From a virus: a DNA stretch of 29,582 nt. The notes below the pieces were generated by a model. That model was not told the DNA's origin and ran no database searches. It saw only the letters and a list, made by a program, of their open reading frames with translations. The first letter of the stretch is position 1. Each line of letters starts with the position of its first letter. The DNA lies in the IMG/VR virus record IMGVR_UViG_3300022200_005884, positions 1 to 29,582 of that record, one strand, 5' to 3'. Made by a program: the position numbers and the translations under genes. Below, piece by piece: positions 799 through 23,222 of the stretch.

Positions 799-3700
799 TT
801 AGTTACCTCCAGTAACCTTTGAACGTAGGTACTTCGCGTACTCAGCTTCAGCTGGAGTACTCAGATTTGTTTCCCTTATCTTAGTAACCATGTTAGCCGC
901 ATAGGTTACTTTTGTGTACCGATCTTTTAGATCATCTATGTTTTTATAGTTAATACCAAGCCCTCGCAACTCAGTAATCATTTTATTGACAGTGACAGGA
1001 TCATACCTTCCCGTGCGCACTTCATCCCAAATCTTCTCAGTTAGCGCGGCCTGCCTACTCCTGATTTGTTGATTACGAAGATACATGTTTGTGCCAATTT
1101 TTCTTTCAATGGCACCCTTGACAGACTGCATCCCAGTAAAAATTGAGGCAAAATCTTCCTGAGAAGTATTATACTTTTTCTCCCCATACTTATGCTCAGT
1201 AAAAGATCCCGGCTTAAATAGAGCGGAAAGTCCAGCTTCTAGGTTAGTCTTCCGCTTAGTTCGCACGGCGACCTGCTCTCCCTTTTGGAAAGCCGCAGCC
1301 TGCTGAACAGCGCGGAACCTCTGTTCAATGCCAACTACGCCGGGAATGGTCATCTCAAGAGAATCGAAAAAGGCTTTCTTTGCCTCATATACTTCAGCAT
1401 AGTCTAGTCCGTCAACAGCCTTGGGTAACGTCCCAAGAAACTTGCTCATGTTAATCAAAGCCTGAACAGGAATGGACTTCCGTTCCCCTGAGGCCATCTT
1501 GGGGAAGTCCTTCATGTACTCTATGCCAACATATTCTTTAATATCAATATTCTGGTCATGCGCTGCGGCAAACTGCATCTTACCGGCGATGCGCAGGTAG
1601 TCAACAAAGGCCCCGCTGTTCTCCATGCCGATGCCAAGCAGCGTTTCAGTCTGTTTAAAAGGAAAACTAAAGAACTGTGTAACGGTAGACGACCCAGTAG
1701 CGGACAGCCTGTTAAACCACACTGGCTTACCAACGGCACCAAAGACATGGTTTAGCTCTTCGGTAGCCCTAGCAGCGTTAGCTATAACTCCGCGCCGCAC
1801 CCCCTCATCTGTAATATCATCCAGAGTTTTTACACCCAGCTTTACAAGTTCGTCATCTACAGCAGCGTGATAAGTAAGGCCACGAATAAAGAACTCGGTT
1901 TCAGAGATAGCAGGAGTTCCCGGCATTTTCAGCCGTCCAGCCCAAGAGCTAAGTCCATGATAAATTTGTGTAATTTCACTGTCAATACCAGCGGCCTTTG
2001 CTACAGCACGGTGCTCACTACTCATCATCTTAGCAAGCCCCTTCATGGCACGAAGAGGGCCGTATTCCGCAGCAGTTGTATTGAGGGCCTGAAGGACGGA
2101 CATGACTGGGTAACGAATATTGCCGGTAAGCGCAGCGGAATACCCTGTAGAGGCCACAAACTTTGCCATCCCACGAAGGCGACTCGCTGCCTCTGGCCCC
2201 AGCCTTTTGTCCGCCTGAGAGTTCAGCCAGGAAGCTTCCCCCCGCAGATTTTTAATTAAGTCATCAGTATACCCAACAATAAAACTTCGCTTTGGATCTG
2301 CCGTTGCAACCTTTGCGGACATATACTTTAGGTCTTCTAGCATAGGCTCAATATACGCCTTACGCCCAGCTCCCCTAGTATATACATCCATAATATGCCC
2401 GATATCAGTAATCTCATACTCAGTGCCGGTACGCTCCAACAGGTTACCAAAGAAAACTCTGGTCTTAGCTGGCAGGCCCTCCATGTCCGGCGGTAGGTTA
2501 CCGTCTTTAAACCAATTTGTGTCTAAAAATCTAGCCCCGTAATCACTCAGATGCGGCACGTACCCTTCTATATAATCCTCCGGCTTCATCTGTAGTTTAA
2601 TAGACATCGTATCAAACAGTGCCCGCATATCATCATGGGCTTCCCGCATCTCTGGAGTAGCCGCGTCCCACAGCTCTTGAAATTTAGCGTTAGCCTTGGC
2701 AATGCTGTCCTCAGTTGGATTAGCCCCAGCGTACTTAGCATTAAGAAGCTCAACAAATTGCTTAGACTTTTCTTTATTCATGGTGCCACCCGGCTCATGA
2801 ATAAATTTGCTGAGAACTCTAGTCCTTGCGTTATTCCTCTCAAGAATACCGGCCTTCTCCATAATCTTTAAGGACTCTTCCCTGGTATAATTTACAAAGT
2901 AATTATACTCGGACAGGCCATTCATCAAGCGGGTGCGCATCTCCGGGGCATAGTCAGCATATACCCGTGTAGGCTCACGAAAGGTACTACTCAGCCAAGA
3001 GGGCGGCATCGGCATAAAGCTTTTAGGGCTGAGGCTTAGCCCAACCATACGGCCCACTTGAGTGCCGAACTGGTCCTTGGCGTACTCTCCGCTTTCCAGG
3101 GGGGACCGCCGCATACTATTCGGCAGCGTTTCCTTTGAATAGTTAGAGTCAATAATAGGCTCACCAGTTTCTTGAATTTTCTTCTTGGACTTCTCCATTT
3201 TCTTTAGCTGCTGCTCTAACTGATACCGGGACTTTACTTCCTTACTGGCCTTCTTTCCAGGCTTTTTAGCCCCCTTAGGGAGCTTGCCCGCCTCACCCAT
3301 TTCCGCCAACTGCTTTTTAGTTCTGGCAATATGTTCGTCAAAACTCTTTAACTGCTTGGCAGCATCCAAGGAGCGCACATACTTGGAAGAACTAAGACCA
3401 TTAGGGCTGACGTTTAGGTTGCCGTAGTAGTGGCTGATACGATCCAATCTTGTGCGAATATTTTTTGGGTCAGTGCCAATAATAATATGGGCCAGCGCAT
3501 CAGAAAAATTTTCTGTATTAGTAGGGCCAAGATTCATGCGGTTATGTAACTCCACACCGTCTTCGATATGCAGCTCTTTATCAATTATTTCTCTGGCCTT
3601 ATCGTACTCTTTAGCAAAAGCCTTTCTGTCCGCTTCCGACCACTCTTTGCCCAGGGCCTTAGCCGCCTGCGCCCCAGTCTTCGGGACCACACTTTTAGTG

Positions 3701-4569
3701 AGCATAATATCATCAATGCTCTTGGCCATAGTGGCGACTTCTTTAGATTCCTCCATCATAGCCAAATGCTTTTGTGCATTTCGCAGCCTTCCAGCCAGAG
3801 TCTCCCCAACTACCTCCAGCCCTCCGGCTTCTGCAACTTCAGACTCCAATGCCTTTACATACTTTTGCGCCACAGAGTGTGCTTCTGTTAGGTAATTCAG
3901 CTTCATCGTTTTTCTGGCCAGCCTACCAGAAACTTCGGCCTGCACACTTAAAGGCAAGGACTTAGACATGCCCTTAACCACTTGTGCCACTGGAACATAA
4001 GTAAGTGGATCGGTGAAAACGTCACCCATAAATGTAGTGGCTTTAAGTAAAAACTCCCCAGCCATATTACCGATGCCGGGCTTTTTATACCATTCTTCTA
4101 ACCTATCATCACTAAGGTCATTGACAATATCTGCCATTGTAATAACTTCGTGGTGGGCCCCTTCCTGCGCCCAGGAGTCCGGTGCCAAGTATTCAGGAAT
4201 AGCCTTGCGCCAGTCCCCTCTAGTAAGAAGCTGATATCCTATCTGCTGTGGTATTGCAAAAAGATCAAAGACATTTTTTGCCCCGCCCCATAGCTTTCCT
4301 AAAAAGCCTTGGGGGTCTACCATTTTTTCTCCAGCCCCGTAATAAGCGGCCATTAGGCCGGGGTCAACATCGTTGTTAGACATATACTGGCTAACCGATG
4401 CGGGCTTTCCATTACCAAACTTTGCGCCACCAGCGATACTATTAGATGCCAGCTGGTCGGCCAGCTCTCCACCGCTGATCGTCATAGATGGGGCATAAAA
4501 AGTATTGGTCCCTGAAAAATGATTAATCAGATCCGCAGATCGACGGGCCTCATCAATATTTCTGGGCAT
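799..4569 (-). CDS. Very large internal virion/ejection-type protein (1256 aa)
   Basis: This is the longest gene in the window. Its ATG overlaps the upstream stop by one base (TAATG), with GAGGA nine bases upstream. The protein is charged, largely helical and without a signal peptide. Residues about 80-200 contain mixed hydrophobic/aromatic stretches (GFLGKLWGGAKNVFDLFAIP and MAGEFLLKATTFMGDVFTDP), and a long Lys/Glu-rich, probably coiled-coil region lies around residues 420-470. Size, helical character and position at the end of the tail module fit the large ejected proteins of podoviruses, such as T7 gp16 or analogous internal virion proteins, which build a DNA-translocation channel. I see no lytic transglycosylase motif, so a peptidoglycan-cutting activity is not supported. 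The assignment rests on context rather than on a family motif. Confidence 0.6.
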   Translation of the reverse strand: MPRNIDEARRSADLINHFSGTNTFYAPSMTISGGELADQLASNSIAGGAKFGNGKPASVSQYMSNNDVDPGLMAAYYGAGEKMVDPQGFLGKLWGGAKNVFDLFAIPQQIGYQLLTRGDWRKAIPEYLAPDSWAQEGAHHEVITMADIVNDLSDDRLEEWYKKPGIGNMAGEFLLKATTFMGDVFTDPLTYVPVAQVVKGMSKSLPLSVQAEVSGRLARKTMKLNYLTEAHSVAQKYVKALESEVAEAGGLEVVGETLAGRLRNAQKHLAMMEESKEVATMAKSIDDIMLTKSVVPKTGAQAAKALGKEWSEADRKAFAKEYDKAREIIDKELHIEDGVELHNRMNLGPTNTENFSDALAHIIIGTDPKNIRTRLDRISHYYGNLNVSPNGLSSSKYVRSLDAAKQLKSFDEHIARTKKQLAEMGEAGKLPKGAKKPGKKASKEVKSRYQLEQQLKKMEKSKKKIQETGEPIIDSNYSKETLPNSMRRSPLESGEYAKDQFGTQVGRMVGLSLSPKSFMPMPPSWLSSTFREPTRVYADYAPEMRTRLMNGLSEYNYFVNYTREESLKIMEKAGILERNNARTRVLSKFIHEPGGTMNKEKSKQFVELLNAKYAGANPTEDSIAKANAKFQELWDAATPEMREAHDDMRALFDTMSIKLQMKPEDYIEGYVPHLSDYGARFLDTNWFKDGNLPPDMEGLPAKTRVFFGNLLERTGTEYEITDIGHIMDVYTRGAGRKAYIEPMLEDLKYMSAKVATADPKRSFIVGYTDDLIKNLRGEASWLNSQADKRLGPEAASRLRGMAKFVASTGYSAALTGNIRYPVMSVLQALNTTAAEYGPLRAMKGLAKMMSSEHRAVAKAAGIDSEITQIYHGLSSWAGRLKMPGTPAISETEFFIRGLTYHAAVDDELVKLGVKTLDDITDEGVRRGVIANAARATEELNHVFGAVGKPVWFNRLSATGSSTVTQFFSFPFKQTETLLGIGMENSGAFVDYLRIAGKMQFAAAHDQNIDIKEYVGIEYMKDFPKMASGERKSIPVQALINMSKFLGTLPKAVDGLDYAEVYEAKKAFFDSLEMTIPGVVGIEQRFRAVQQAAAFQKGEQVAVRTKRKTNLEAGLSALFKPGSFTEHKYGEKKYNTSQEDFASIFTGMQSVKGAIERKIGTNMYLRNQQIRSRQAALTEKIWDEVRTGRYDPVTVNKMITELRGLGINYKNIDDLKDRYTKVTYAANMVTKIRETNLSTPAEAEYAKYLRSKVTGGN

Positions 4570-12195: not shown

Positions 12196-14501
12196 TACAC
12201 AGCACCTCCTTCAAGTGCGCTAAGTTCCCCTCCCATAGCAGGATTACCCTGTTGGGGAACCCCCGGTGTGGGGGCCTGATTTGGCGAGGTACCGCCCTGC
12301 ATCTGCTGTCCCTGCTGGGCCATGGCCATCTGCTGCCTGAGCAGTGCTTCGTGCTGATTTCTATGTTGCGCGATAAGGGCCACAGTATGCTGAGGCAACT
12401 CCTCAAAAGCAGCGGATTTTGTGAACGCATCAATTTTTGCCAGATGCTCTTGGTGATTGTCAATAGGCAGCACATCAATCGGCTTGTTCATGCGCATGGC
12501 CTGAATCTCATGCTCCTGCTGCATCGGGGGATGGGAATACCCGCCCTCGCCAGGAAGCTTCGGAATCAGATGGTCAACATTCTGATTATCTGACATGTAC
12601 GTGAGATAGTCCCTGAGCCTCGCCTGAGCGGCGTGGGGATCAGACTGGTACAGGGCGTCATTTGACGTATTCATGTACCTCTGCGCAGCCAGGGCGCGTT
12701 GCTGGTCACGATTAACACTAGTCAGCGACCCGGTGAACTCATACAGATAATTATTGCGCAGATCCTTGGGACTCACTCGGCGGGGGGCATCCTCACCAGT
12801 GACGCTATACCACTTGTCAATACTCACGAAACGGCCATAAAGTGGGACTACCTGGGCAATCATTTCTTTCCAAGCATTGGCTTGCAACTGCTCAACAATG
12901 GTGGACAAATGCTCCTCAGCCGCATCCATCAAAGCCATAGTTCCCCTCGCAGTACGCGGAGCATTACGGTAGTTGCTACTGCCTCCAATGCTCGGGCTGA
13001 AGGTCAGCCTGTCAGCATATCCTAGCAGGGTCTGGAAAGATGTATGGAAATTGGCCAGCGGCTCTTGGGCAAAGGCGGGGAAGACGACACTGTTTGGGTC
13101 AGCAATAGCAACTCCCATACCTGGAGCAATGCCATCTAGTAGCTGATCGTTACTGGCCAAGCCAAGATTGCTGTAGAGGAACCAGGGATTCGTCTTGATA
13201 GCCATGGCATTGGCCGTGTTGTTCATGACGTTATCAACTTCAAGGTTAATAGCGTACAGAATTTCAGCCATGCCAATGCCGTAGAAGCGGTCGGGAACCG
13301 GGATATACACAGAACTGATGAAGGGCCTCTTGCCATGCGGGAAGGTTTCGTCGTGATACTCTACTCCTGCGATCTTTCGGATTTCATCTGGCAAGAAGTA
13401 AATAACATCAATAGGCTCATCATCGCCATCCACATAATCCCGAACATAGATTTCCCAAACCATAATCTGGTTGGGGTCAATCTTTCCATCCTTAGTTGTA
13501 AGCTCAGTCCCCGTGTTGCCGGTTTCACCGATGACCTTATCTCGTAATGCGGCGGACTTGCTCTCGGGGTCAGCATTACGCTTCAGCCCCTTGAGAGCAT
13601 TTAGCTCGGCCTTCGTCAGCTTCCAGTCACCATTATCGACCAGCGTTTTAATTTCATCATAAGTGTACCACGTTCTGTGCGCAACCCAATCAGCGGACTG
13701 TAAACACGCAGAGCGATACGGCAGATAAATGTCTTCTAGCTCGACAAGTTCAATGACGGGGCTATCCCGTTCAATGACGTTTCGGAATACCTTAATGTCT
13801 ACCTCGTCGATTTTGTCGCTCTCTTGGAATTGTGCCCTCGCCTTGAGCTTGCGCCGGTCCTCAGTGAACTCAACTGCATACTCGTCCTCTCCAAGTTGTT
13901 TGACATCAATGACGGTATTCTTGTAGTCGCCAAGTCCAAAAATCTCCGACAGCATTTCCTCTGGAGACTTTGGGGTTAGGGCCTGGATCTGCTCACCCAG
14001 CAGATTAATGTCTCCCGGCATATACATGCTACGGAGGGTGTGCACCTCAATAGCCCTGCGCCATGTCCGCTCCCACCGGATCTTGCCCACGCTAGTCCCG
14101 TCAATGAACATATTGCGCAGATAGTTTTCAAGAGTACGGTAGAAACCAGGAATATCATTACGGAACGCCCAAGAGACGAACCGCTCGATATTCTTGATAG
14201 ATTTCATGTCTACATCTACGCCACCAGGGGCAGTGATCTGCACAAAAGGATCGGCCCTCCACAAGGCCGACATCACTTTTGGCACAGCCATCTCTACCTT
14301 TTCCATGATAACGGGTAAATGTATATCCGCTGCGCCCTTCCAAGGTACCGTTGCGTCATACCCGCCGGGATCTTTATAGTACATCTCGCGCAAGTCTTCG
14401 CGCTTATCGAACAGGGCACCACGATCAGCCTCAGACTTTTTAATCTGATGCCAGAAGTATTCTCCACGTTCTTTAAGAAATGCCGGTTTAGTTTTTACCA
14501 T
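12195..14501 (-). CDS. Portal protein
   Basis: The gene encodes 768 aa, within the range of large podovirus portals. It begins seven bases before the terminase stop and ends in a one-base overlap with the adaptor gene, the classic terminase-portal-adaptor order. The N-terminal region (residues about 1-110, with FWHQIKKSEADRGALFDKRE and VPWKGAADIHLPVIMEKVEM) has the helical, Trp-containing character of portal proteins in which many copies contact the terminase. Residues about 400-470 (VPVPDRFYGIGMAEILYAI, then EVDNVMNNTANAMA) match the wing/stem region, with the typical F/Y-G-x-G-x-x-E turn. The last 60 residues are Gln/Pro/Gly-rich and probably disordered. It should form the DNA-entry dodecamer of the capsid. 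Confidence 0.85.
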   Translation of the reverse strand: MVKTKPAFLKERGEYFWHQIKKSEADRGALFDKREDLREMYYKDPGGYDATVPWKGAADIHLPVIMEKVEMAVPKVMSALWRADPFVQITAPGGVDVDMKSIKNIERFVSWAFRNDIPGFYRTLENYLRNMFIDGTSVGKIRWERTWRRAIEVHTLRSMYMPGDINLLGEQIQALTPKSPEEMLSEIFGLGDYKNTVIDVKQLGEDEYAVEFTEDRRKLKARAQFQESDKIDEVDIKVFRNVIERDSPVIELVELEDIYLPYRSACLQSADWVAHRTWYTYDEIKTLVDNGDWKLTKAELNALKGLKRNADPESKSAALRDKVIGETGNTGTELTTKDGKIDPNQIMVWEIYVRDYVDGDDEPIDVIYFLPDEIRKIAGVEYHDETFPHGKRPFISSVYIPVPDRFYGIGMAEILYAINLEVDNVMNNTANAMAIKTNPWFLYSNLGLASNDQLLDGIAPGMGVAIADPNSVVFPAFAQEPLANFHTSFQTLLGYADRLTFSPSIGGSSNYRNAPRTARGTMALMDAAEEHLSTIVEQLQANAWKEMIAQVVPLYGRFVSIDKWYSVTGEDAPRRVSPKDLRNNYLYEFTGSLTSVNRDQQRALAAQRYMNTSNDALYQSDPHAAQARLRDYLTYMSDNQNVDHLIPKLPGEGGYSHPPMQQEHEIQAMRMNKPIDVLPIDNHQEHLAKIDAFTKSAAFEELPQHTVALIAQHRNQHEALLRQQMAMAQQGQQMQGGTSPNQAPTPGVPQQGNPAMGGELSALEGGAV

Positions 14502-16018
14502 ACGTCCCGTCCTTGCCGCAACATTCGGGCTAATGAATGATACTTGGCATTGGTCATGACCATGTATCTAATGCAATCTACGCAATCATCATTAGTCTTG
14601 AGGGGCTTCTCCATAGGATCAGCACCAGTAGCCTTATGTTGCGCGGACTCTGGTTGCCATACAAAGTTCAAAAATTCGTGGACTACCCTGGGGCAGTTGT
14701 TGAAGATTACTAGCTGCGGCCCAGTACTCCACTCAAACGTTTCATCGACCATAATCATTTCATTGATCTTGTCGATGCTGGCCATGTATCCCATCTTGTA
14801 CGCGGACATTAGGGATATGCCGTGTTGGCCAAAGGCCATTCTCGTTGTAGCGTTGCCCACCCGCTCAAAGGTATTAGCAGAAGTGTCAATTAGACGGAGA
14901 ACTACTGGCTCTGAGTCGGCCCCTTGGTACCATGTCCCATCAGCTCGGCGTGTCCATCCCTCAACCTCTTTGATGTATTCGCTGAACTGCTTGATAGTGA
15001 TAAGCGAGTCAGTATATACGTCCCGGTATATGTACCATGTGTTGTCGGGGCTAATAGCGATCCATACAGCGGCGAGAGGCTTGCGCGGCGAAGGATCAAT
15101 CGCCATCATTCGGGGCCAGCTCTCCGGTATATCGAAAGGATCTACCAAGAAAGGGGGCCTAGGTTCCCACGCCTTGAATACGGCTCCCGCCAAGTGAGCG
15201 GGCTTCCCGTGCAAGCGGGACTGTAGTTCATCGGGGCGCAGCGAACGAATAAACTCGTCTACTGCTTTATCCTCAAGATGCCCCCCACGGGATTTGCGGT
15301 TGTCGTCAATGCTGATGGAGATTAATTCTGTGCTGCTGCCTGGGGTGTTCGCCTCGGCCATTAGTTCGGCCATGAAGTGAGATGCCTTGATCGGCGTTGC
15401 TGCGATCCACGCCCGGCCTGAAAAGTCAATCAATCCTCGGGTGAGCGCAATCCACTTGTCCCGTGTGGGGGGTTCATCGCTGACAACAAAATGGCCAGAA
15501 GCACCTTCTAATGCCGTTGTGGCTTGCTCCTGGCTTAGTACATGAATCACCGATCCGTTGTTAAATTCAACAGCTACAGGGTGTCCTTGATTATTCTTTT
15601 TTATTTTGGCTACACCTTTTGGTAGCCACTCTTCCATTTTCGGAAGAAATACTTGCGTCCCGGCAACCTTCAAGTTCTCCAGCAGATGATACCCGCGATT
15701 AGGAACAGGGATTGGGTTCCCATCGTCAAGCCGCACAATGCGGTCAGGGTGATCTTCTGGTAGCCAGGGCCGATATCCTAGGGAGTGTGCAATCTCCTCG
15801 ACAGTTGAACACACAGATTTCCCGCTCCGGTTAGACCCAAATAGCAACCTTGTGCGGGCGTTAGAGCCAAAAAAATTTACTTGGTTTCCAACAGGTTTAA
15901 ATGTTACAATCTTGTTATCTCGATAGTATCGCTCTAAGGCTTGTACGTCACGCGCAATCTTCTGCAAAGCGGAAAGTGCTTCCGCCTTATTATCAATTTT
16001 TGCCTCAGAGTCCTTCAT
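14495..16018 (-). CDS. terL: Terminase large subunit (TerL)
   Basis: This is the packaging ATPase and nuclease. The ATG at 16016-16018 is preferred over an in-frame GTG at 16022-16024, because AGGGAG lies five bases before the ATG but abuts the GTG. That gives 507 aa. Walker A is GSNRSGKS (about residues 61-68). Walker B is FVVSDE (about 177-182), with the catalytic Glu. The C-terminal RNase-H-like nuclease shows its three acidic sites: MMAIDPSP (D308), LRLIDTS (D378) and NDDCVDC (D481, with D477/D478 nearby). The ATPase coupling region WIAATPIKAS is also present. All key residues are intact, so the enzyme should be active. It lies between capsid and portal rather than next to the putative small subunit, which is seven genes upstream. 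Confidence 0.95.
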   Translation of the reverse strand: MKDSEAKIDNKAEALSALQKIARDVQALERYYRDNKIVTFKPVGNQVNFFGSNARTRLLFGSNRSGKSVCSTVEEIAHSLGYRPWLPEDHPDRIVRLDDGNPIPVPNRGYHLLENLKVAGTQVFLPKMEEWLPKGVAKIKKNNQGHPVAVEFNNGSVIHVLSQEQATTALEGASGHFVVSDEPPTRDKWIALTRGLIDFSGRAWIAATPIKASHFMAELMAEANTPGSSTELISISIDDNRKSRGGHLEDKAVDEFIRSLRPDELQSRLHGKPAHLAGAVFKAWEPRPPFLVDPFDIPESWPRMMAIDPSPRKPLAAVWIAISPDNTWYIYRDVYTDSLITIKQFSEYIKEVEGWTRRADGTWYQGADSEPVVLRLIDTSANTFERVGNATTRMAFGQHGISLMSAYKMGYMASIDKINEMIMVDETFEWSTGPQLVIFNNCPRVVHEFLNFVWQPESAQHKATGADPMEKPLKTNDDCVDCIRYMVMTNAKYHSLARMLRQGRDVW

Positions 16019-16035
16019 GCACACTCCCTAATTGC

Positions 16036-16058
16036 GGGGGCCGGGTATCCCGACCCCC
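16036..16058 (-). terminator. GC-rich hairpin between capsid and terL
   Basis: In the minus-strand RNA this forms five G:C pairs, one G.U wobble, four more pairs and a three-base ATA loop, giving a continuous 10-bp stem. On the plus strand the wobble would be a C.A mismatch, so the structure belongs to the virion transcript. It lies 13 bases after the capsid stop and about 17 bases before the terL start. No U-run follows it, so it is not a canonical intrinsic terminator. A partial attenuator or an RNA-stability/processing element is more likely. It could keep capsid mRNA more abundant than terL mRNA. Confidence 0.55.
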
Positions 16059-16071
16059 ACATATTGCATTA

Positions 16072-16980
16072 CTAGACGTTAGCACCAACAATACCACGCC
16101 AGTCCCAGGCCGCAGTAGCGCAACGGAAGCGGGAGCCAATACGGACACCAGACTTCACGTAGTCCACTTCGGACCAGTTCTCGGGGGTAATGCGCCAGTA
16201 CCAATCCAGCATATGATCATCACTCAGCAGGAACCAGTCAACATCACTGGTCATGAACTGCGAAGCCACAACGGCCAGACCCTCGCGGGACACGGCGTTG
16301 ATCTCATTGCTGTAATAGTTACTGGACGGAGAAGCAGTCTCCATCGTGCTGTCCAACACCTGCGCGGTCGTAAACCGCAGAGCGTTGGGAATAACGATCT
16401 TGGCAGCCTTCTGGAAAACGGGGATACCACGGTCATCCACCTGACCTTCCAGGGCCAAGATAGCTTCCTCGACTCCAGCAATAGACATGGCGGTGGTAAT
16501 AATGTTATCACCAGTGGTGCCATTCAGCGTGGAGTGAGAGGCACTAACCAGGGCCACACCATCAGGCGTGGTAACACTGGTCTGTGCACTGTTAAGGACA
16601 TCGTGCCCCAGGACTTCCTGAGTAGCACGGCCAGCCCTGAGCATCAGAGGCATGCGGGCGGCAACGATCTTGTTGCCTTCCTTATCCTCAATGGCCTCCT
16701 GCGACACCAGATGCTGCTTAGCATAGGTGACCACAGTGGCACGAGCAGTCGGACCCTGGATCATGTCATCCGAAGCGGCATCAACCAGCTCGGGCTTACT
16801 CTGGAACAGAGTGAAGCCACTGACAGTAGCCCCATCAATCCAGCCAGTATCGGTGGACTTGACATTCAGGAACTCGGCAAACTTCATAGGATGTTCCTTG
16901 AAGTCGTGGCCGACGATTTCTTCAAGATAAGGTTTTACGTTAGCGTAAAAATTATCAAGAGCAGTGCGGTTAAGAGCCAT
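16072..16980 (-). CDS. Major capsid protein (HK97-fold, Mu gpT-like)
   Basis: The protein has 302 aa and the strongest ribosome site of the operon (AAGGAGGTGA, about eight bases from ATG), as expected for the most abundant virion protein. The N-terminal helix (LDNFYANVKPYLEEI), the central P-domain helix region (VEEAILALEGQVDDRGIP) and the HSTLNGTTGDN and VDWFLLSDDHMLDWYW segments resemble the gpT-like branch of HK97-fold major capsid proteins. There is no long N-terminal delta domain, so a separate scaffold is expected, and the acidic 184-aa protein upstream is a candidate. The C-terminal IGSRFRCATAAWDWRGIVG also fits the family. I am confident it is the capsid protein, less so of the exact subfamily. 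Confidence 0.85.
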   Translation of the reverse strand: MALNRTALDNFYANVKPYLEEIVGHDFKEHPMKFAEFLNVKSTDTGWIDGATVSGFTLFQSKPELVDAASDDMIQGPTARATVVTYAKQHLVSQEAIEDKEGNKIVAARMPLMLRAGRATQEVLGHDVLNSAQTSVTTPDGVALVSASHSTLNGTTGDNIITTAMSIAGVEEAILALEGQVDDRGIPVFQKAAKIVIPNALRFTTAQVLDSTMETASPSSNYYSNEINAVSREGLAVVASQFMTSDVDWFLLSDDHMLDWYWRITPENWSEVDYVKSGVRIGSRFRCATAAWDWRGIVGANV

Positions 16981-16994
16981 TAGTAGTCACCTCC

Positions 16995-17522
16995 TTAAGT
17001 ATCAGTATCAACCATGTGGTCGAAGTTAACGAGTTTGACGCGAACAATAGGAGTCTTGTTGGCAACGTAGGTACTCGCGTTGTTCGGAATTTCCGTAGCC
17101 AGACCCTGAACCTGCACAACTACAGTAGCCGTAGAGGGGAAAGTCGCAACAAGCGCGCTTTCGTCAACAACGCCCTCACTATGGTCGGCAGCTTCGCCAC
17201 CAGCAGTAACCAGAGGCCCCCAACGATTAACATCGGACGACAAGGTAAACGCACCATCCATCAGGGCGTAGAACTCCATATCATAGTCGTCAGTAATGAT
17301 CAGCTCAGTCTCGACACCGGGAGTGGCATCAACATGATGGCACGCCACGCCTTCGGCCTTGAGTCCAAGAACCCACGGGATTGCATACCCGCTGGAGATA
17401 GACACAGGCCAGCCCTTATAAATCTTATCACTAGCATCAGGAGCAACACGCAACTTGCGGTACTTTTTGCACTCGGACGCGGGCTGAAGACCAAAGGGGC
17501 CATCGAAAATAGAAACAGCCAT
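16995..17522 (-). CDS. Probable head decoration/capsid-stabilising protein
   Basis: The protein has 175 aa and is preceded by AAGGAGGG, one of the best ribosome sites in the window, which implies high expression. It is mostly beta-rich, acidic, has only two cysteines and lacks helical or catalytic motifs. The N-terminal segment (VAPDASDKIYKGWPVSISSG) resembles the small beta-sandwich decoration proteins encoded directly upstream of many major capsid genes, which bind the outside of the expanded shell. The gene order (scaffold candidate, small protein, this gene, major capsid) supports that. The family assignment is by context and general fold only. Confidence 0.5.
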   Translation of the reverse strand: MAVSIFDGPFGLQPASECKKYRKLRVAPDASDKIYKGWPVSISSGYAIPWVLGLKAEGVACHHVDATPGVETELIITDDYDMEFYALMDGAFTLSSDVNRWGPLVTAGGEAADHSEGVVDESALVATFPSTATVVVQVQGLATEIPNNASTYVANKTPIVRVKLVNFDHMVDTDT

Positions 17523-17597
17523 TTAACTACCCTCCTTCTAGGGTGTAAATTTTAAAGCAAAACAAACACAGGCGGGTAGCAATCGACTGCCCAATAA

Positions 17598-17609
17598 AAG
17601 TGTACACTT
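17598..17609. repeat. 12-bp perfect palindrome in an 85-bp intergenic gap
   Basis: AAGTGTACACTT is a perfect palindrome overlapping the stop codon of the 132-aa gene. The following gap to the decoration-protein gene is AT-rich and contains TAAAAT but no matched -35 element. It may be an operator or a weak hairpin, or chance. Confidence 0.3.
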
Positions 17610-18006
17610 AGTCTTTGCGGCCAGGGAAGTCAGTAATGCGTGTGTGCCGAATCTCGGCACCAGTCTCGACCATCTTAAGCTGGGCATCGGCCTTAGCTTG
17701 CTTTTCGGCCTGTCGCGCATCATATCGTTCTTGACTGGCAAATGACAGCATACAGTCGCGGCCCTTCATGAAATAATCAGTCTGTTCATTCAGGCCCTGA
17801 AACTTGTCGAACAGGTCACCAAGTTGCTTTTCAACCTGCTGGCCTAGCTCGGAATCTCGGCGCACTGGTTCCCAGATACGCCATCCAAGTTTCTCATTGG
17901 CATACGGGTTCTGCCAGGAAAAGATCAGACCGGCCACCACTGGCAGATCCTCCTTTACCTTACGCATCACTTCCTGATCGTACACCTGTCGAACTTTCTT
18001 AGCCAT
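17608..18006 (-). CDS. Small head-region protein, unknown function
   Basis: The protein has 132 aa and its start overlaps the upstream stop by one base (TAATG). It is charged and mixed helical, with a central WQNPYANEKLGWRIWEPVRR segment and a Lys/Gln/Ala-rich helix near the C-terminus (about residues 93-115). I recognise no family. Its place between the scaffold candidate and the decoration protein suggests a head-assembly role such as a scaffold partner, maturation factor or minor head component. No protease motif (Ser-His or Ser-Lys context) is visible, so a prohead protease role is not supported. Confidence 0.6.
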   Translation of the reverse strand: MAKKVRQVYDQEVMRKVKEDLPVVAGLIFSWQNPYANEKLGWRIWEPVRRDSELGQQVEKQLGDLFDKFQGLNEQTDYFMKGRDCMLSFASQERYDARQAEKQAKADAQLKMVETGAEIRHTRITDFPGRKD

Positions 18007-18560
18007 TATTCCTCCCCTTGGTCAGCCTCTGCTCGGGCGGCGACACGTTCCAAAAAGTCTTCGTCACCAACCGGGATCAAGTTCGCCAAGTCTCGCCGCA
18101 CATCGGCAGTCTTGGACAAGAACTCGTCTTCTACCTTCTTGGTCGCACCAGTAGGTTTAGCGGGTTTAATCTTTCCCATGGGACCGCCACCAGCGTCCCT
18201 ACGGCCAGCAGGCTGAAGGCCCATGTCCAGGCCGACAGCGTTTGCCGCAGCAAGCAGAGAGTCTTCACGATCAAGGCCATGCTCCCCCATGTACGTGTCC
18301 ACGGCCTTGTAGAACTCGGACTCCTCATCCTTAAGCTCAGGCCAGTTTTTATACGCCTGCTCGTCCATCTGCTTGGCCTTGGCCTTTTTCTCCTGAGCAG
18401 TGGTGAGCTTGGTGTACTTCTCCTCCACAGCCCGCTCGATAATCAGATCGTCCAGAGCCTCAAGCTGAGACTCCGTGACTTCCTCCAGATTCAGCGTTCG
18501 CTTGAACTGGCGCAATTCAGCCGCCGTGGCGGACTGAAAAAATTTCTCATCATACTGCAT
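18006..18560 (-). CDS. Acidic helical protein, scaffold candidate
   Basis: The protein has 184 aa, is very acidic overall and mostly helical. A Glu/Leu-rich N-terminal half (LRQFKRTLNLEEVTESQLEA) and a Lys/Glu segment (about residues 53-70) suggest a coiled coil. A Gly/Pro-rich, low-complexity hinge follows at about 115-140, and the C-terminus is charged. Podovirus scaffolds are typically acidic, helical, of low complexity and encoded a few genes upstream of the capsid protein. The capsid protein here lacks its own scaffold domain, which makes this the best candidate. A capsid-vertex or minor head protein is possible instead. Confidence 0.45.
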   Translation of the reverse strand: MQYDEKFFQSATAAELRQFKRTLNLEEVTESQLEALDDLIIERAVEEKYTKLTTAQEKKAKAKQMDEQAYKNWPELKDEESEFYKAVDTYMGEHGLDREDSLLAAANAVGLDMGLQPAGRRDAGGGPMGKIKPAKPTGATKKVEDEFLSKTADVRRDLANLIPVGDEDFLERVAARAEADQGEE

Positions 18561-18563
18561 AGT

Positions 18564-18761
18564 TTAAAAATCCTCCCATCTGACGATCATTTCGTACACT
18601 GCGGAAATTCCGGCGATTACGCCTTTTGCGTAACCCATGGCTTCCTTGGCTTCGTGCAATGTCTCGGCCTTATCTAGTTCGGTCATTGTCTGGTTCTGCA
18701 CGTTAGCCGCCACGGTTTCCTTGAGCTTTTTGAGTTCGGCCAAAATTTCTTTCTTTGTCAT
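18564..18761 (-). CDS. Small helical protein, unknown function
   Basis: The protein has 65 aa. Two ATG codons are adjacent. The second (18759-18761) is preferred because GGGAGG sits about five bases from it but only two from the first. The sequence is a Lys/Glu/Leu-rich amphipathic helix (residues about 2-20), then an Ala/Glu helix and a short hydrophobic stretch (GVIAGISAVYEMIV). There is no known family. It lies between the terminase-small-subunit-like gene and the scaffold candidate, so a packaging or head-assembly accessory is plausible. Confidence 0.5.
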   Translation of the reverse strand: MTKKEILAELKKLKETVAANVQNQTMTELDKAETLHEAKEAMGYAKGVIAGISAVYEMIVRWEDF

Positions 18762-18809
18762 CATTACCTCCCGTAAGGCAAGGGGCAGAGGGAAGGCCGG
18801 GAGGAAACC

Positions 18810-19463
18810 TTACTGATCCTCCGACCCCTCGCCTTCGTCCATAACTTCGTAATCAGCTTCTAGCCGATCTCCCAGCTCGGCCACACGATCCTGAAGCGAA
18901 CTAAGACCTTCTATGTCCACATTCAAGAACTGGAGCCGTTTGATCGAGCCGCCAACACTTTCGACAAGCTGGCGCAGGTTAGCGGGATTCAAGTCTCCGC
19001 CGATGTCACGATCATTCAGCCGGTCCGCCCGATCCTGAAGCTTGCTGGCTTGGTCGAGCAGAATACCGGCGGTCACCGCAATTTGCTGGCCGGTCGGCCC
19101 ACTATGCTGCACAGAAACCAGATTGCCCTCAGCGTCCCTACGTTCCACGCGATCATGGGTGAGCGAATCCGGGGTGATCTTGTCGAGTGCCTGCTGGGCC
19201 TTCTCGGTGATCTGGCCGGCCATTTCCTCATACGCCTTGGCCCGTGCACGTTTGATGACATCATCTTCATGCTTGGCCCTGCGCAATTGATATTCAACAG
19301 TCTGGTAGGAACACCCTACCTTAGCTGCTATTTCATTATATGTAGTACCTAATGCACGTAATTTAATAATCTCTTCTCTTTTACTGAGAGATAAATTATG
19401 TCTATGCTTCTTAGGTAATCTCTTTGTCTTTCTTTTATATTTATTATTATTATTAGTACTCAT
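18810..19463 (-). CDS. Putative terminase small subunit (HTH DNA-binding)
   Basis: The protein has 217 aa. The N-terminus is very basic (NKYKRKTKRLPKKHRH), followed by a helix-turn-helix at about residues 28-62 (KREEIIKLRALGTTYNEIAA, then KVGCSYQTVEYQLRR). Helical, coiled-coil-like regions cover about 65-105 and 135-205, and the tail is acidic. This is the usual plan of a terminase small subunit: a DNA-binding HTH that recognises the pac/cos site plus an oligomerisation region. It is the first gene of the virion operon, about 53 bases after the predicted transcription start. The alternative is a transcriptional regulator of the divergent control region. The run of Asn codons (AAT repeats) at the start is an odd low-complexity feature. 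Confidence 0.6.
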   Translation of the reverse strand: MSTNNNNKYKRKTKRLPKKHRHNLSLSKREEIIKLRALGTTYNEIAAKVGCSYQTVEYQLRRAKHEDDVIKRARAKAYEEMAGQITEKAQQALDKITPDSLTHDRVERRDAEGNLVSVQHSGPTGQQIAVTAGILLDQASKLQDRADRLNDRDIGGDLNPANLRQLVESVGGSIKRLQFLNVDIEGLSSLQDRVAELGDRLEADYEVMDEGEGSEDQ

Positions 19464-19522
19464 ATCTTTCCTTTACCTCCCTTAATAAATACTAATAGTA
19501 ATTAAGGTCTTCTTTCATTATT

Positions 19523-19573
19523 AGTATACCATGTATTTACTATACTTTCAAGACTATTTTAAAAATAATTTAT
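19523..19573 (-). promoter_or_regulatory. Strong sigma70 promoter with UP element for the virion operon
   Basis: Reading leftward: -35 TTGAAA (19546-19551), a 17-base spacer, -10 TATACT (19523-19528), with TGG before it making an extended -10. Directly upstream of the -35 (19552-19573) is an AT-rich tract (AAATTATTTTTAAAATA) that closely follows the known UP-element consensus bound by the RNA polymerase alpha subunit. Predicted transcription start is near 19516, about 53 bases before the first gene. All elements are of host type, so host RNA polymerase should transcribe the structural genes strongly without a phage polymerase. Confidence 0.85.
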
Positions 19574-19668
19574 AAGTTATTATATATCAATAGAATAAAA
19601 TTTACCTGTTTCACCAGATATAGTGCTTTTTACCCTGCCGGAAAGTTTAGAAATTATATGTTCAGATG

Positions 19669-19681
19669 GTGTGTTACACAC
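19669..19681. repeat. Palindrome GTGTG-TTA-CACAC
   Basis: Perfect 5-bp arms with a three-base centre, between the AT-rich promoter region and the GC-richer repeats. An operator for a dimeric regulator is plausible. No regulator gene of this kind is identified in the window. Confidence 0.4.
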
Positions 19682-19701
19682 GTGTAGAACATATTGAGGC
19701 A

Positions 19702-19760
19702 GTCCCCCACACATAACACAACATCTAGTGGTCCCCCACGCTCCGCATAACTACATATAG
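19702..19760. repeat. Two imperfect 29-32 bp direct repeats
   Basis: GTCCCCCAC occurs at 19702-19710 and 19731-19739. Each copy is followed by CATAAC (19712-19717 and 19746-19751) and then TAGTG, so the whole unit is repeated imperfectly. No ORF with a ribosome site covers it. A protein-binding array is the likely explanation. Confidence 0.5.
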
Positions 19761-19778
19761 TGGCTAGATACTTACCAT

Positions 19779-19790
19779 GCCTAATTAGGC
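19779..19790. repeat. 12-bp palindrome GCCTAATTAGGC with nearby half-site
   Basis: This is a perfect palindrome. A half-site GCCTAATT recurs at 19824-19831. The pattern is operator-like: one full site plus one half-site 45 bases away. Confidence 0.45.
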
Positions 19791-19863
19791 AAAGGGCCTT
19801 TTGGCTGCCGAAGCAGTCACACCGCCTAATTGTTGGGGGGAATCGGCGCGTGGACCCCTGTGC

Positions 19864-19970
19864 CCCTGGCAAATCGGACAACAAGGTATTAATACTACTG
19901 TATCCATATGTCCACAATGTTGGAGCTCCCTGGCGAACTGGACAACAAGGTATTAATACTCTTTTATCCA
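19864..19970. repeat. Pair of 43-bp direct repeats
   Basis: Copies lie at 19864-19906 and 19928-19970, 64 bases apart, matching at about 37 of 43 positions. Both contain CCCTGGC, then GGACAACAAGGTATTAATAC and then, four bases on, TATCCA. The perfect 10-bp palindrome GTATTAATAC is inside each copy. They could be binding sites for a phage regulator or replication initiator, or paired phage-specific promoters. TAATACTACT has a loose resemblance to T7-type promoters, but no single-subunit RNA polymerase is in the window. Confidence 0.75.
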
Positions 19971-20028
19971 GTACCCGTGGCCCAGGGATTGTGTACAAAT
20001 GGACACATGACGTTTTGGCAATGTGGGT

Positions 20029-20118
20029 ATGTCACTATGTCATACCTGTCAGCAGCCCCGGTAGCCTGTCACCTTGTCATGTCACTATGTCATACCTGCT
20101 ATGGCCATCGGTAGCCTG
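20029..20118. repeat. Pair of 40-bp direct repeats, 50-bp period, TGTCA iterons
   Basis: Copies at 20029-20068 and 20079-20118 share an identical first 20 bases (ATGTCACTATGTCATACCTG) and an identical last 10 (CGGTAGCCTG), with a variable centre of about ten bases. TGTCA occurs six times in this stretch. Conserved ends with a variable middle, and short iterated words, fit origin iterons or a cooperative operator. Confidence 0.7.
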
Positions 20119-20204
20119 CTCACATCCTATTGCCCCCCCCAACAACTTGCCATTTTGTCTCAAACCTGCCCATCCTAACCGCTTGCCCGCCAACAACTTA
20201 TGAT

Positions 20205-20269
20205 CCGGTTGACAGAATGTCTGCAGATATCCCGTAGTTTTTGTACAATCTGTCATAAATTGCCGGTTG
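20205..20269. promoter_or_regulatory. Operator-like paired sites, possible promoter
   Basis: CCGGTTG occurs at 20205-20211 and 20263-20269. TGACAGA (20210-20216) and its inverse TCTGTCA (20249-20255) lie between. TTGACA (20209-20214) is a perfect -35 hexamer but has only a weak -10 (CGTAGT) at normal spacing. TACAAT at 20244-20249 is a good -10 without a -35. A regulated rightward promoter feeding the downstream structured region is possible but not proven. Confidence 0.35.
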
Positions 20270-20303
20270 GCACAGATCTTTCTGCTGATGGGGCGCTGTC
20301 TCT

Positions 20304-20338
20304 AAGTTGTTGCCATGACGCAACTTACAACTTTTTTT
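20304..20338 (+). terminator. Weak hairpin followed by a T-run
   Basis: AAGTTG (20304-20309) and CAACTT (20321-20326) form a 6-bp stem with an 11-base loop. Five bases later there is a run of seven T. The stem is short and the T-run offset, so it is at best a weak rightward terminator. It marks the left edge of the dense hairpin region. Confidence 0.25.
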
Positions 20339-20340
20339 CT

Positions 20341-20940
20341 GGAATTTGGCATTGTGGCATCGGACATGCTAGTCTTGGGCAGACCCGAAGGGGTGGACGC
20401 CGATGGACCCTACGGACCCGGAGCCCCTTCAACGGAAGGTCTGATCTGGTGGCTAAACTGGCGAGCATACCAAGGCGAAAGCCGAGATTGCACAGACCCT
20501 AGTCCCTTGCACACTAGCAGATTCCGTCAAATGGTCTAGGTTGGACTGGACGCCAGCAGCCGATCCGGTGCTACAGGCAATGAGCCGCCGCCCCATAGGT
20601 GGACATGGGCCTACCGGGAAACGGGATAACCAGACCCGTCAAAAACTGTGTACAGGTGCCTGGACTACCGTACCAAATAGCCCACCAACCCAATGCAGGG
20701 GAGATAAAAACCCCTGAGCTTGCACCGTCAGTGAAACGGGACTGAAAGCCGGATGGGACGCTAATACCTTGAGTCTTAAGGGATACCTTAAGCCGGGGTG
20801 ACCGTCGATTGAGTTGCGTGGAAGGCCCATAAGACACTGGGTATTGCATGAGGTAATATTGTGTGTAATCGGGTACCAGTACCGCCGAACTGGGAACCTA
20901 GTATAACAGTATCCTGCTATGCTAGTCACCTTAACTTTTC
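20341..20940 (+). ncRNA. Candidate large structured non-coding RNA
   Basis: About 600 bases without a ribosome-site-backed ORF but with closely packed, nested inverted repeats. CAGACC (20380-20385) pairs GGTCTG (20438-20443), enclosing GAAGGGG/CCCCTTC (20387-20393 with 20424-20430). GGC-GAAA-GCC, a GNRA tetraloop, is at 20474-20483. GTAC-a-GGT/ACCGTAC is at 20650-20673. CAGGGG/CCCCTG is at 20696-20716. CTTAAGG-GATA-CCTTAAG is at 20775-20792, enclosed by ACC/GGT and GACG/CGTC (20757-20806). CCAGT/ACTGG is at 20876-20893 and an interrupted stem at 20898-20925. The GNRA loop favours the plus strand. Size and phage context recall ornate RNAs such as GOLLD and ROOL, but I cannot match either. Short stems also arise by chance, so covariation is needed. 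Ends are approximate. Confidence 0.45.
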
Positions 20941-20964
20941 ACTTTAATCTAATGAGGTAATGCC

Positions 20965-21177
20965 ATGTACGGTAACCTCCTAAATGTTTTGGTGACGGAC
21001 GGCAAATCCAGCCCCAAGCAAAACGTCAAGGTACGCAGCAACGTTCATAGCAATAGGCTACCACTTCCCGGTGAAGGTGATGATCCCGCCTTCCACTGGA
21101 AGGGCAAGGCCCGACAGGCTCCCAAGGCTAGTTGGGTTCGCAAGGGCGTAGTCCTCAAGGTTCAGGAGGTTAAGTAA
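20965..21177 (+). CDS. Small basic protein, unknown function
   Basis: The protein has 70 aa and is the first gene of the rightward operon. GAGGT lies nine bases before the ATG. It is basic (many Lys/Arg), with a Gly/Pro turn in the middle (LPLPGEGDDPAFHWKGKARQ) and a beta-like C-terminus (WVRKGVVLKVQEVK). No family is recognised. Basic character and first position in an early operon would fit a small nucleic-acid-binding or host-takeover protein, but that is inference. It is separated by one base from the next gene. Confidence 0.6.
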   Translation: MYGNLLNVLVTDGKSSPKQNVKVRSNVHSNRLPLPGEGDDPAFHWKGKARQAPKASWVRKGVVLKVQEVK

Positions 21178-21178
21178 C

Positions 21179-21367
21179 ATGGCAACCCGATACTCTGCTC
21201 TAGTTGCCAAGCTGGACAGTCTGAGGGCTGAAGCTTGGCGTGACATTGCGGCAAGGGAAAAGGAATTGCTTGAGGAAGGAAAGCCTTTCAATGGCGACCA
21301 GATCAGACGGCGGGCAATTTCCCGATGGGCCTTGCTGGATGAAATCCTCAACCAGGAAAGGGCTTGA
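21179..21367 (+). CDS. Small helical protein, source of a truncated duplicate
   Basis: The protein has 62 aa, with CAGGAGGT about nine bases before the ATG. It is highly charged and helical (WRDIAAREKELLEEGKPF, then DQIRRRAISRWALLDEILNQ), with no known family. Its first 13 and last 8 codons reappear as a miniature ORF at 23122-23187. It ends two bases before the next ATG, within the same run of small genes. Confidence 0.65.
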   Translation: MATRYSALVAKLDSLRAEAWRDIAAREKELLEEGKPFNGDQIRRRAISRWALLDEILNQERA

Positions 21368-21369
21368 CA

Positions 21370-21564
21370 ATGAAGCGGAACATGGCGATTACTGAGTTTT
21401 GCAAACTGACGGAACTGGTCGGATGCATGGTGTTCAAGAACAAGAAAGCGTATGACTGTCTCTGCAATGACCGCAGTGGGATGCACCAACGAACCCATGA
21501 AGACATAATCACCTACATTCGTGAAGCGGTAGAAGCCAGAATGGAAAGTGAGGGGCTGCTGTGA
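21370..21564 (+). CDS. Small protein, unknown function
   Basis: The protein has 64 aa. The ATG at 21370 is preferred over an in-frame TTG at 21364, since an AAAGGG site is well placed for it. The sequence is mixed (ITEFCKLTELVGCMVF, then HEDIITYIREAVEARME), with four cysteines. I do not recognise it. The last codons (RMESEGLL and stop) lie in an exact 29-bp repeat that recurs at 21765, and the stop overlaps the next start (GTGATG). Confidence 0.6.
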   Translation: MKRNMAITEFCKLTELVGCMVFKNKKAYDCLCNDRSGMHQRTHEDIITYIREAVEARMESEGLL

Positions 21565-21758
21565 TGGATGCCAAAGACAGGAAGATAGCCGAGCTTGAGG
21601 CCAAGTTGGCGATGGTGGCTGCGTGGTTGCGTGACCATTCATTGCTTGGCCCACGGGGCAGATGTATGACCTCTCTTGGGGGCCCAGAAGAAATGTATAC
21701 GACTCTCGACGCCATCCTCTCCGACACCAGCAGGCCGAAGGAGGCCGACAATGGCTAA
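21564..21758 (+). CDS. Small coiled-coil-like protein, unknown function
   Basis: The protein has 64 aa. The ATG overlaps the preceding stop, and a GTG three bases earlier is a possible alternative start. A helical N-terminus (KIAELEAKLAMVAAWLRDH) is followed by a Gly-rich turn and a C-terminal TLDAILSDT segment. That tail and the charged helix resemble the 92-aa protein at 29280 (DILSDT near its end), so the two may be distant paralogues. Function unknown. Confidence 0.6.
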   Translation: MDAKDRKIAELEAKLAMVAAWLRDHSLLGPRGRCMTSLGGPEEMYTTLDAILSDTSRPKEADNG

Positions 21759-21792
21759 CACAGGCAGAATGGAAAGTGAGGGGCTGCTGTGA
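21751..21792 (+). pseudogene. 13-codon mini-ORF, probable gene remnant
   Basis: This ORF (MANTGRMESEGLL) has a strong AAGGAGG ribosome site six bases before its ATG, yet codes only 13 residues. Its last eight codons are those of the 64-aa gene ending at 21564, within the exact 29-bp repeat. The simplest reading is a duplicated small gene that lost its middle while keeping its ribosome site, tail and coupling to the next start. It may still be translated as a short peptide. Confidence 0.5.
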
Positions 21793-21893
21793 TACGCAAG
21801 CTCTGCCTCTTGTTCGCCCAGGATCACGTTTTCTATCCTACTGTGATCGGCATTGTTCTGGTTGCGCTGGCAATTGCCTGTGGCACAATCTAA
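21789..21893 (+). CDS. Small single-span membrane protein (34 aa)
   Basis: A GTG start at 21789-21791 overlaps the TGA of the mini-ORF (GTGA), with GAGGGG well placed upstream. The product starts MIRKLC, has a polar middle (FAQDHVFYP) and ends in a hydrophobic helix of about 16 residues (VIGIVLVALAIACGTI). This is the layout of a tiny inner-membrane protein of unknown role. It is followed 11 bases later by the next gene, whose ribosome site overlaps its stop. Confidence 0.5.
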   Translation: MIRKLCLLFAQDHVFYPTVIGIVLVALAIACGTI

Positions 21894-23117: not shown

Positions 23118-23121
23118 TATC

Positions 23122-23187
23122 ATGGCAACCCGATACTCTGCTCTCGTTGCCAAGCTGGATGAAATCCTCAACCAGGAAAGGGCTTGA
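23122..23187 (+). pseudogene. Miniature in-frame deletion copy of the 62-aa gene
   Basis: This 21-codon ORF consists of the first 13 and last 8 codons of the gene at 21179, nearly identical at DNA level. The junction is at GCTGGA, which occurs twice in the parent (21211-21216 and 21334-21339). The 123-bp difference equals exactly 41 codons, so it is an in-frame deletion between microhomologies. An AAGGGG site precedes the ATG, so a short peptide could still be made. Confidence 0.75.
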
Positions 23188-23222
23188 CATCGCCTGTGCC
23201 GCAATTTGAAGGAGGAAGAACA

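Follow-up and report, generated by a model that had tools for sequence, protein, structure and literature searches.

The window, i.e. the whole stretch of DNA analysed (29,582 nt), is a 29.6-kb genome fragment of an uncultured tailed phage, in which the minus strand carries the structural genes as far as the gene of a TerS-like HTH protein at 19463, and the plus strand carries the early and replication genes from position 20965 onwards. The TerS-like gene is separated from the early genes by 1.5 kb without clear genes, the right part of which is the stretch studied here (20341–20940). Between the divergent operons lies a control region (19552–20303, no strand assigned) with direct repeats of 43 nt and 40 nt and TGTCA-type repeats. 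At the 43-nt direct repeat (19864–19970, spacing 64), the near-identical contig L006 appears to have an altered copy number or an assembly break, and the L006 SNPs at 19850–19964 were rejected as mostly misalignment across a deleted repeat copy.

The first early ORF, 70 aa in length (20965–21177, plus strand), is preceded by a GAGG site at 20954–20957. This ribosome site (20953–20958) can pair with ACCTTA at 20928–20933 at a mean probability of 0.71, a predicted pairing that is possibly a form of translational control. Among the early genes, one of 62 aa (21179–21367) has its start and its end repeated, joined together, at 23118–23189 (42 nt at 95% and 36 nt at 100%), resembling a deleted duplicate, and a repeat around AGAATGGAAAGTGAGGGGCTGCTGTGAT was identified in the same cluster at 21538–21565 and 21767–21794.

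Relatives of the phage were few. Single-protein searches returned near-identical contigs only, and a TerL alignment widened with 30–39% relatives added L029 (TerL 71%) and three near-identical contigs, L030–L032 (65%). The TerS-to-tail gene order is common to L029 and L032. In L029, about 680 untranslated nt (4200–3521, minus strand) precede a small ORF (3518–3300), the C-terminal half of which resembles the first early ORF of the window to a degree equalled by 5 of 1000 shuffles. The L029 stretch is syntenic with that of the window, as it lies between the TerS homologue and the probable homologue of the first early ORF, and both phages follow one order: the divergent late promoter with TerS, then the control region, a terminator or terminator-like hairpin, promoter sites of one type, the untranslated stretch, and a small early ORF. 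In L030–L032, only the control region was found at this place, with no untranslated stretch before the early genes. With gaps allowed, the control region of the window aligned with the intergenic region of L032 better than any of 200 shuffles, a result that was not upheld with strict gap costs (30 of 500 shuffles). TGTCA/TGACA pairs, which may be operator sites, are repeated in the control regions of the window (20029–20118) and L032 (5128–6347) and not in that of L029. Near TerS, all three phage types seem to share a CCCTGC(C)GG element that has T/A runs close by (window 19625–19647, L029 5758–5790, L032 6090–6125).

The untranslated stretches of the window and L029 showed no significant similarity by strict local alignment, and with lenient gaps 25 of 200 shuffles scored as well; covariance models of two window domains had no match in any relative. 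The two stretches are therefore described here as counterparts by position rather than as homologues. In wider searches, blastn of the stretch and its L029 counterpart against 50,697 phages gave no long match, three motifs scanned across IMG/VR returned only L005, a near-identical strain, and a profile search of genome contigs with two TerL alignments yielded no relative. A region ahead of TerL that is conserved in some 40 distant phages, considered as a possible second RNA, proved to be TerS. Many contigs of distant TerL relatives (L034–L075) begin about 600–800 nt before TerL, two of which read with CACCCGACACATATATA, and this suggests a fixed genome end.

The promoter scan combined TTGACA (5 of 6 positions) and the extended −10 TGnTAnnnT at a spacer of 16–18. 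It returned five sites in the window where 0.6 would be expected, a count that is not independent because the pattern was devised after viewing the L029 and window sites. One site is at the left end of the stretch (20346–20375, plus strand), and another at 19551 (minus strand) in front of TerS; the same scan of the L029 contig gave three tandem sites before its stretch and one before TerS. The latter window site belongs to the probable promoter of the late (TerS-to-tail) operon (19523–19551, minus strand; TTGAAA-17-TATACT, extended −10), a counterpart of which stands in front of TerS in L029 (L101 +13933). The former is a probable early promoter of sigma-70 type (TTGGCA-18-TAGTCT, with TGC before the −10), and it resembles the L029 unit TTGACATTGTGCCGACGATGTGCTAGTGT, although the best direct alignment of the window and L029 promoter regions was not significant alone (54 of 500 shuffles). 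Just upstream, a weak terminator-like hairpin with a T run after it (AAGTTGT...ACAACTTTTTTT; 20304–20338, plus strand; fold −7.0 kcal/mol) was missed by the consensus terminator scan; in L029 the corresponding position, immediately ahead of the promoters, holds a strong terminator (−24.4). No terminator-like site was found by the consensus scan between 20940 and the ORF at 20965. The earlier note had described a plus-strand RNA upstream of the early genes, and the promoter and the shared L029 layout agree with that direction; its left boundary at 20341 needs shifting, as 20346–20375 is promoter-like and transcription would probably start near 20382.

Each helix listed in the earlier note was located in the sequence: CAGACC/GGTCTG (20380–20385/20438–20443) with GAAGGGG/CCCCTTC (20387–20393/20424–20430), a GGC-GAAA-GCC hairpin (20474–20483), a bulged hairpin (20650–20673), a CAGGGG/CCCCTG hairpin (20696–20716), and a CTTAAGG/CCTTAAG hairpin (20775–20792) enclosed by TACCTTG/CGGGGTG and GACG/CGTC. 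Their abundance, however, was that expected by chance: perfect hairpins with loops up to about 40 nt numbered 6 at 6 bp, where dinucleotide shuffles have 5.5, and 2 at 7 bp, where they have 1.3. Likewise, the minimum free energy of the 600 nt (20341–20940) showed no excess on the plus strand (z −1.43, with 9 of 100 shuffles equally good; −1.97 in a second estimate) or the minus strand (z −0.08). These values fall inside the range of other 600-nt segments of the same phage, coding segments included (z +1.8 to −2.5), and 160-nt plus-strand windows within the stretch ranged from +1.1 to −1.4, never beyond. An A-rich strand skew was dropped as a sign of RNA, since the coding TerS regions of distant relatives share it.

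The L029 counterpart folds far more strongly, with z −6.15 on the early-gene strand, surpassing all 20 shuffles, and −4.43 on the other strand (20 shuffles each). A 600-nt part of it reached z −5.3, against −0.3 to −3.7 in other L029 segments. Folding was strongest at 3501–3820, where a row of long, nearly perfect hairpins precedes the first early ORF, both strands giving z of about −3 to −5. The tetranucleotide CTAG is over-represented in L029, about 3.5-fold in the untranslated stretch and about 4-fold in the control region.

Strain variation offered a further view of the fold. L005 covers positions 12719–20819 (8.1 kb) at 99.8% identity, and 10 of its 15 differences, all ten being transitions, are within 93 nt (20720–20812), in a predicted plus-strand 3′ domain (20682–20821, model R1) with a closing helix of about 12 pairs. 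A predicted variable hairpin (20718–20749, plus strand) holds the pair changes: 20720/20747 and 20728/20736 go from U-A to C-G by changes on both sides. C.A mismatches become U-A at 20723/20741, U.G at 20729/20735, and C-G at 20690/20812, and no pair of the structure favoured by L005 is broken by SNPs. The L005 variant is 11 kcal/mol more stable, a gain reached by 1.8% of composition-matched random mutants, and among random transition sets two double changes alone arose in 10%, and together with an equal alifold energy in 1.3% (152 of 11,579). The structure was, however, picked after viewing L005, the SNPs are less than 100 nt from the end of the contig, and when the window sequence is folded alone, pairing in the hairpin has a probability of only about 0.1. 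The simulation gave a comparable result for the minus strand (p 0.019), and therefore the SNP pattern does not decide the strand. The material for covariation is thus one near-identical strain with two double-sided pairs, at p of about 0.01–0.02, or 10% for the double changes alone. The earlier proposal of a structured RNA is weakly favoured by these SNPs and by the L029 counterpart (z −6.2), and disfavoured by the window fold, which is not below shuffles.

We consider the stretch a plausible long leader RNA rather than a demonstrated new giant RNA. On this reading, to which we give about an even chance, it is an untranslated 5′ leader of the early operon of about 580 nt (predicted at 20382–20964, plus strand), partly structured and acting in cis; the L029 positions corresponding to it are about 4190–3519. 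Right after infection, host RNA polymerase with its housekeeping sigma factor would initiate at the extended −10 promoter 20346–20375, produce the leader from about 20382 onwards, and read through unterminated into the small early ORFs that begin at 20965. The leader would probably fold in part, most clearly in the 3′ domain, and would most likely act in cis on elongation (attenuation or antitermination) or on translation of the first genes. The upstream promoter and the lack of coding are inferred from the sequence, while the syntenic layout with L029 is directly observed; the fold is weakly suggested by the SNPs and the L029 energies, and any regulatory action is our conjecture. The leader reading is preferred because it covers the promoter, the direction, the non-coding character, the missing terminator and the synteny, and the lack of conservation may be accounted for by a proposed rapid turnover. 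In its favour are also the folding in L029, the rarity of extended −10 sites, and the L005 SNPs; against it are the window fold, which equals that of shuffles and other segments, the lack of sequence or structure similarity to the L029 stretch, the missing stretch in L030–L032, and the minus-strand, double-change and contig-end properties of the SNP data.

The main rival takes the stretch as regulatory or filler DNA (operators, a replication origin or spacer), with a functionless RNA and chance helices, a view we hold possible but rather doubtful. Hairpin counts and fold energies that match shuffles, the repeats of the adjoining control region, and the lack of sequence conservation in relatives all suit it, but the strongly structured L029 counterpart, a promoter placed upstream and not downstream of the stretch, and the L005 SNP pattern do not. 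Should it hold, the case would serve as a caution, since long hairpin lists are expected by chance at such composition. Overlooked short genes are highly improbable occupants: minus-strand ORFs of 92 and 96 aa do exist, but neither has a GGAG-type site, strain SNPs would alter 7 and 5 of their residues within a short span, and the L029 stretch has no SD-backed long ORF resembling them. The only ORF of at least 25 aa with a GGAG-type site inside the stretch is one of 28 aa, largely in line with the earlier statement that the stretch has no ribosome-site-backed ORF.

The earlier suggestion of a large ornate RNA in the manner of GOLLD and ROOL fared less well. A new class of stand-alone, trans-acting ornate phage RNA would fit the untranslated length of about 580–680 nt, the absence of any Rfam match above threshold and the strong folding in L029, but the window has no folding excess and no tRNA, no terminator separates the stretch from the early ORF, and neither sequence nor structure is kept between phages sharing 71% of TerL, homologues being found only in near-identical contigs. 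Such an RNA is possible but unsupported, as no result argues for it specifically, and we regard it as quite unlikely. We also think it unlikely that this phage group has a new, fast-evolving type of large structured RNA that is transcribed before anything else and works in trans or as an RNA machine, with the strongly folded region of L029 as a second member diverged beyond recognition in sequence. If the leader is functional, an uncultured phage group devotes about 600 nt of a compact genome to RNA ahead of its early genes, and holds the layout while the sequence turns over completely; L029 and the window would then be a tractable pair for probing the role of the leader.

The earlier note could not match the RNA to a known family, and this was borne out by Rfam scans of the window (gathering score) and of 19464–20980 (E≤10), in which no family matched the stretch, the GOLLD and ROOL models included; in L029, nothing exceeded threshold, weak hits being mostly microRNA models that matched long hairpins. 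Many GOLLD members exceed 800 nt and often, though not universally, lie near tRNA islands, with a conserved 3′ region, and ROOL has a conserved pseudoknotted structure and occurs in phages and prophages (PMC12286853). The stretch would be like GOLLD in giving an untranslated phage RNA several hundred nt long that has no known function, and like ROOL in giving an untranslated phage RNA of such length. It differs from the former by having no covariance-model match, no conserved region and no tRNA elsewhere in the window, and from the latter by having no model match and no structure conserved between the window and its relatives. The lambda nut and HK022 put sites are phage early leader RNA elements of under about 100 nt, in contrast to the predicted leader of about 580 nt. 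The leader would resemble them in lying close to the promoter of an early operon, where its RNA could act on RNA polymerase in cis.
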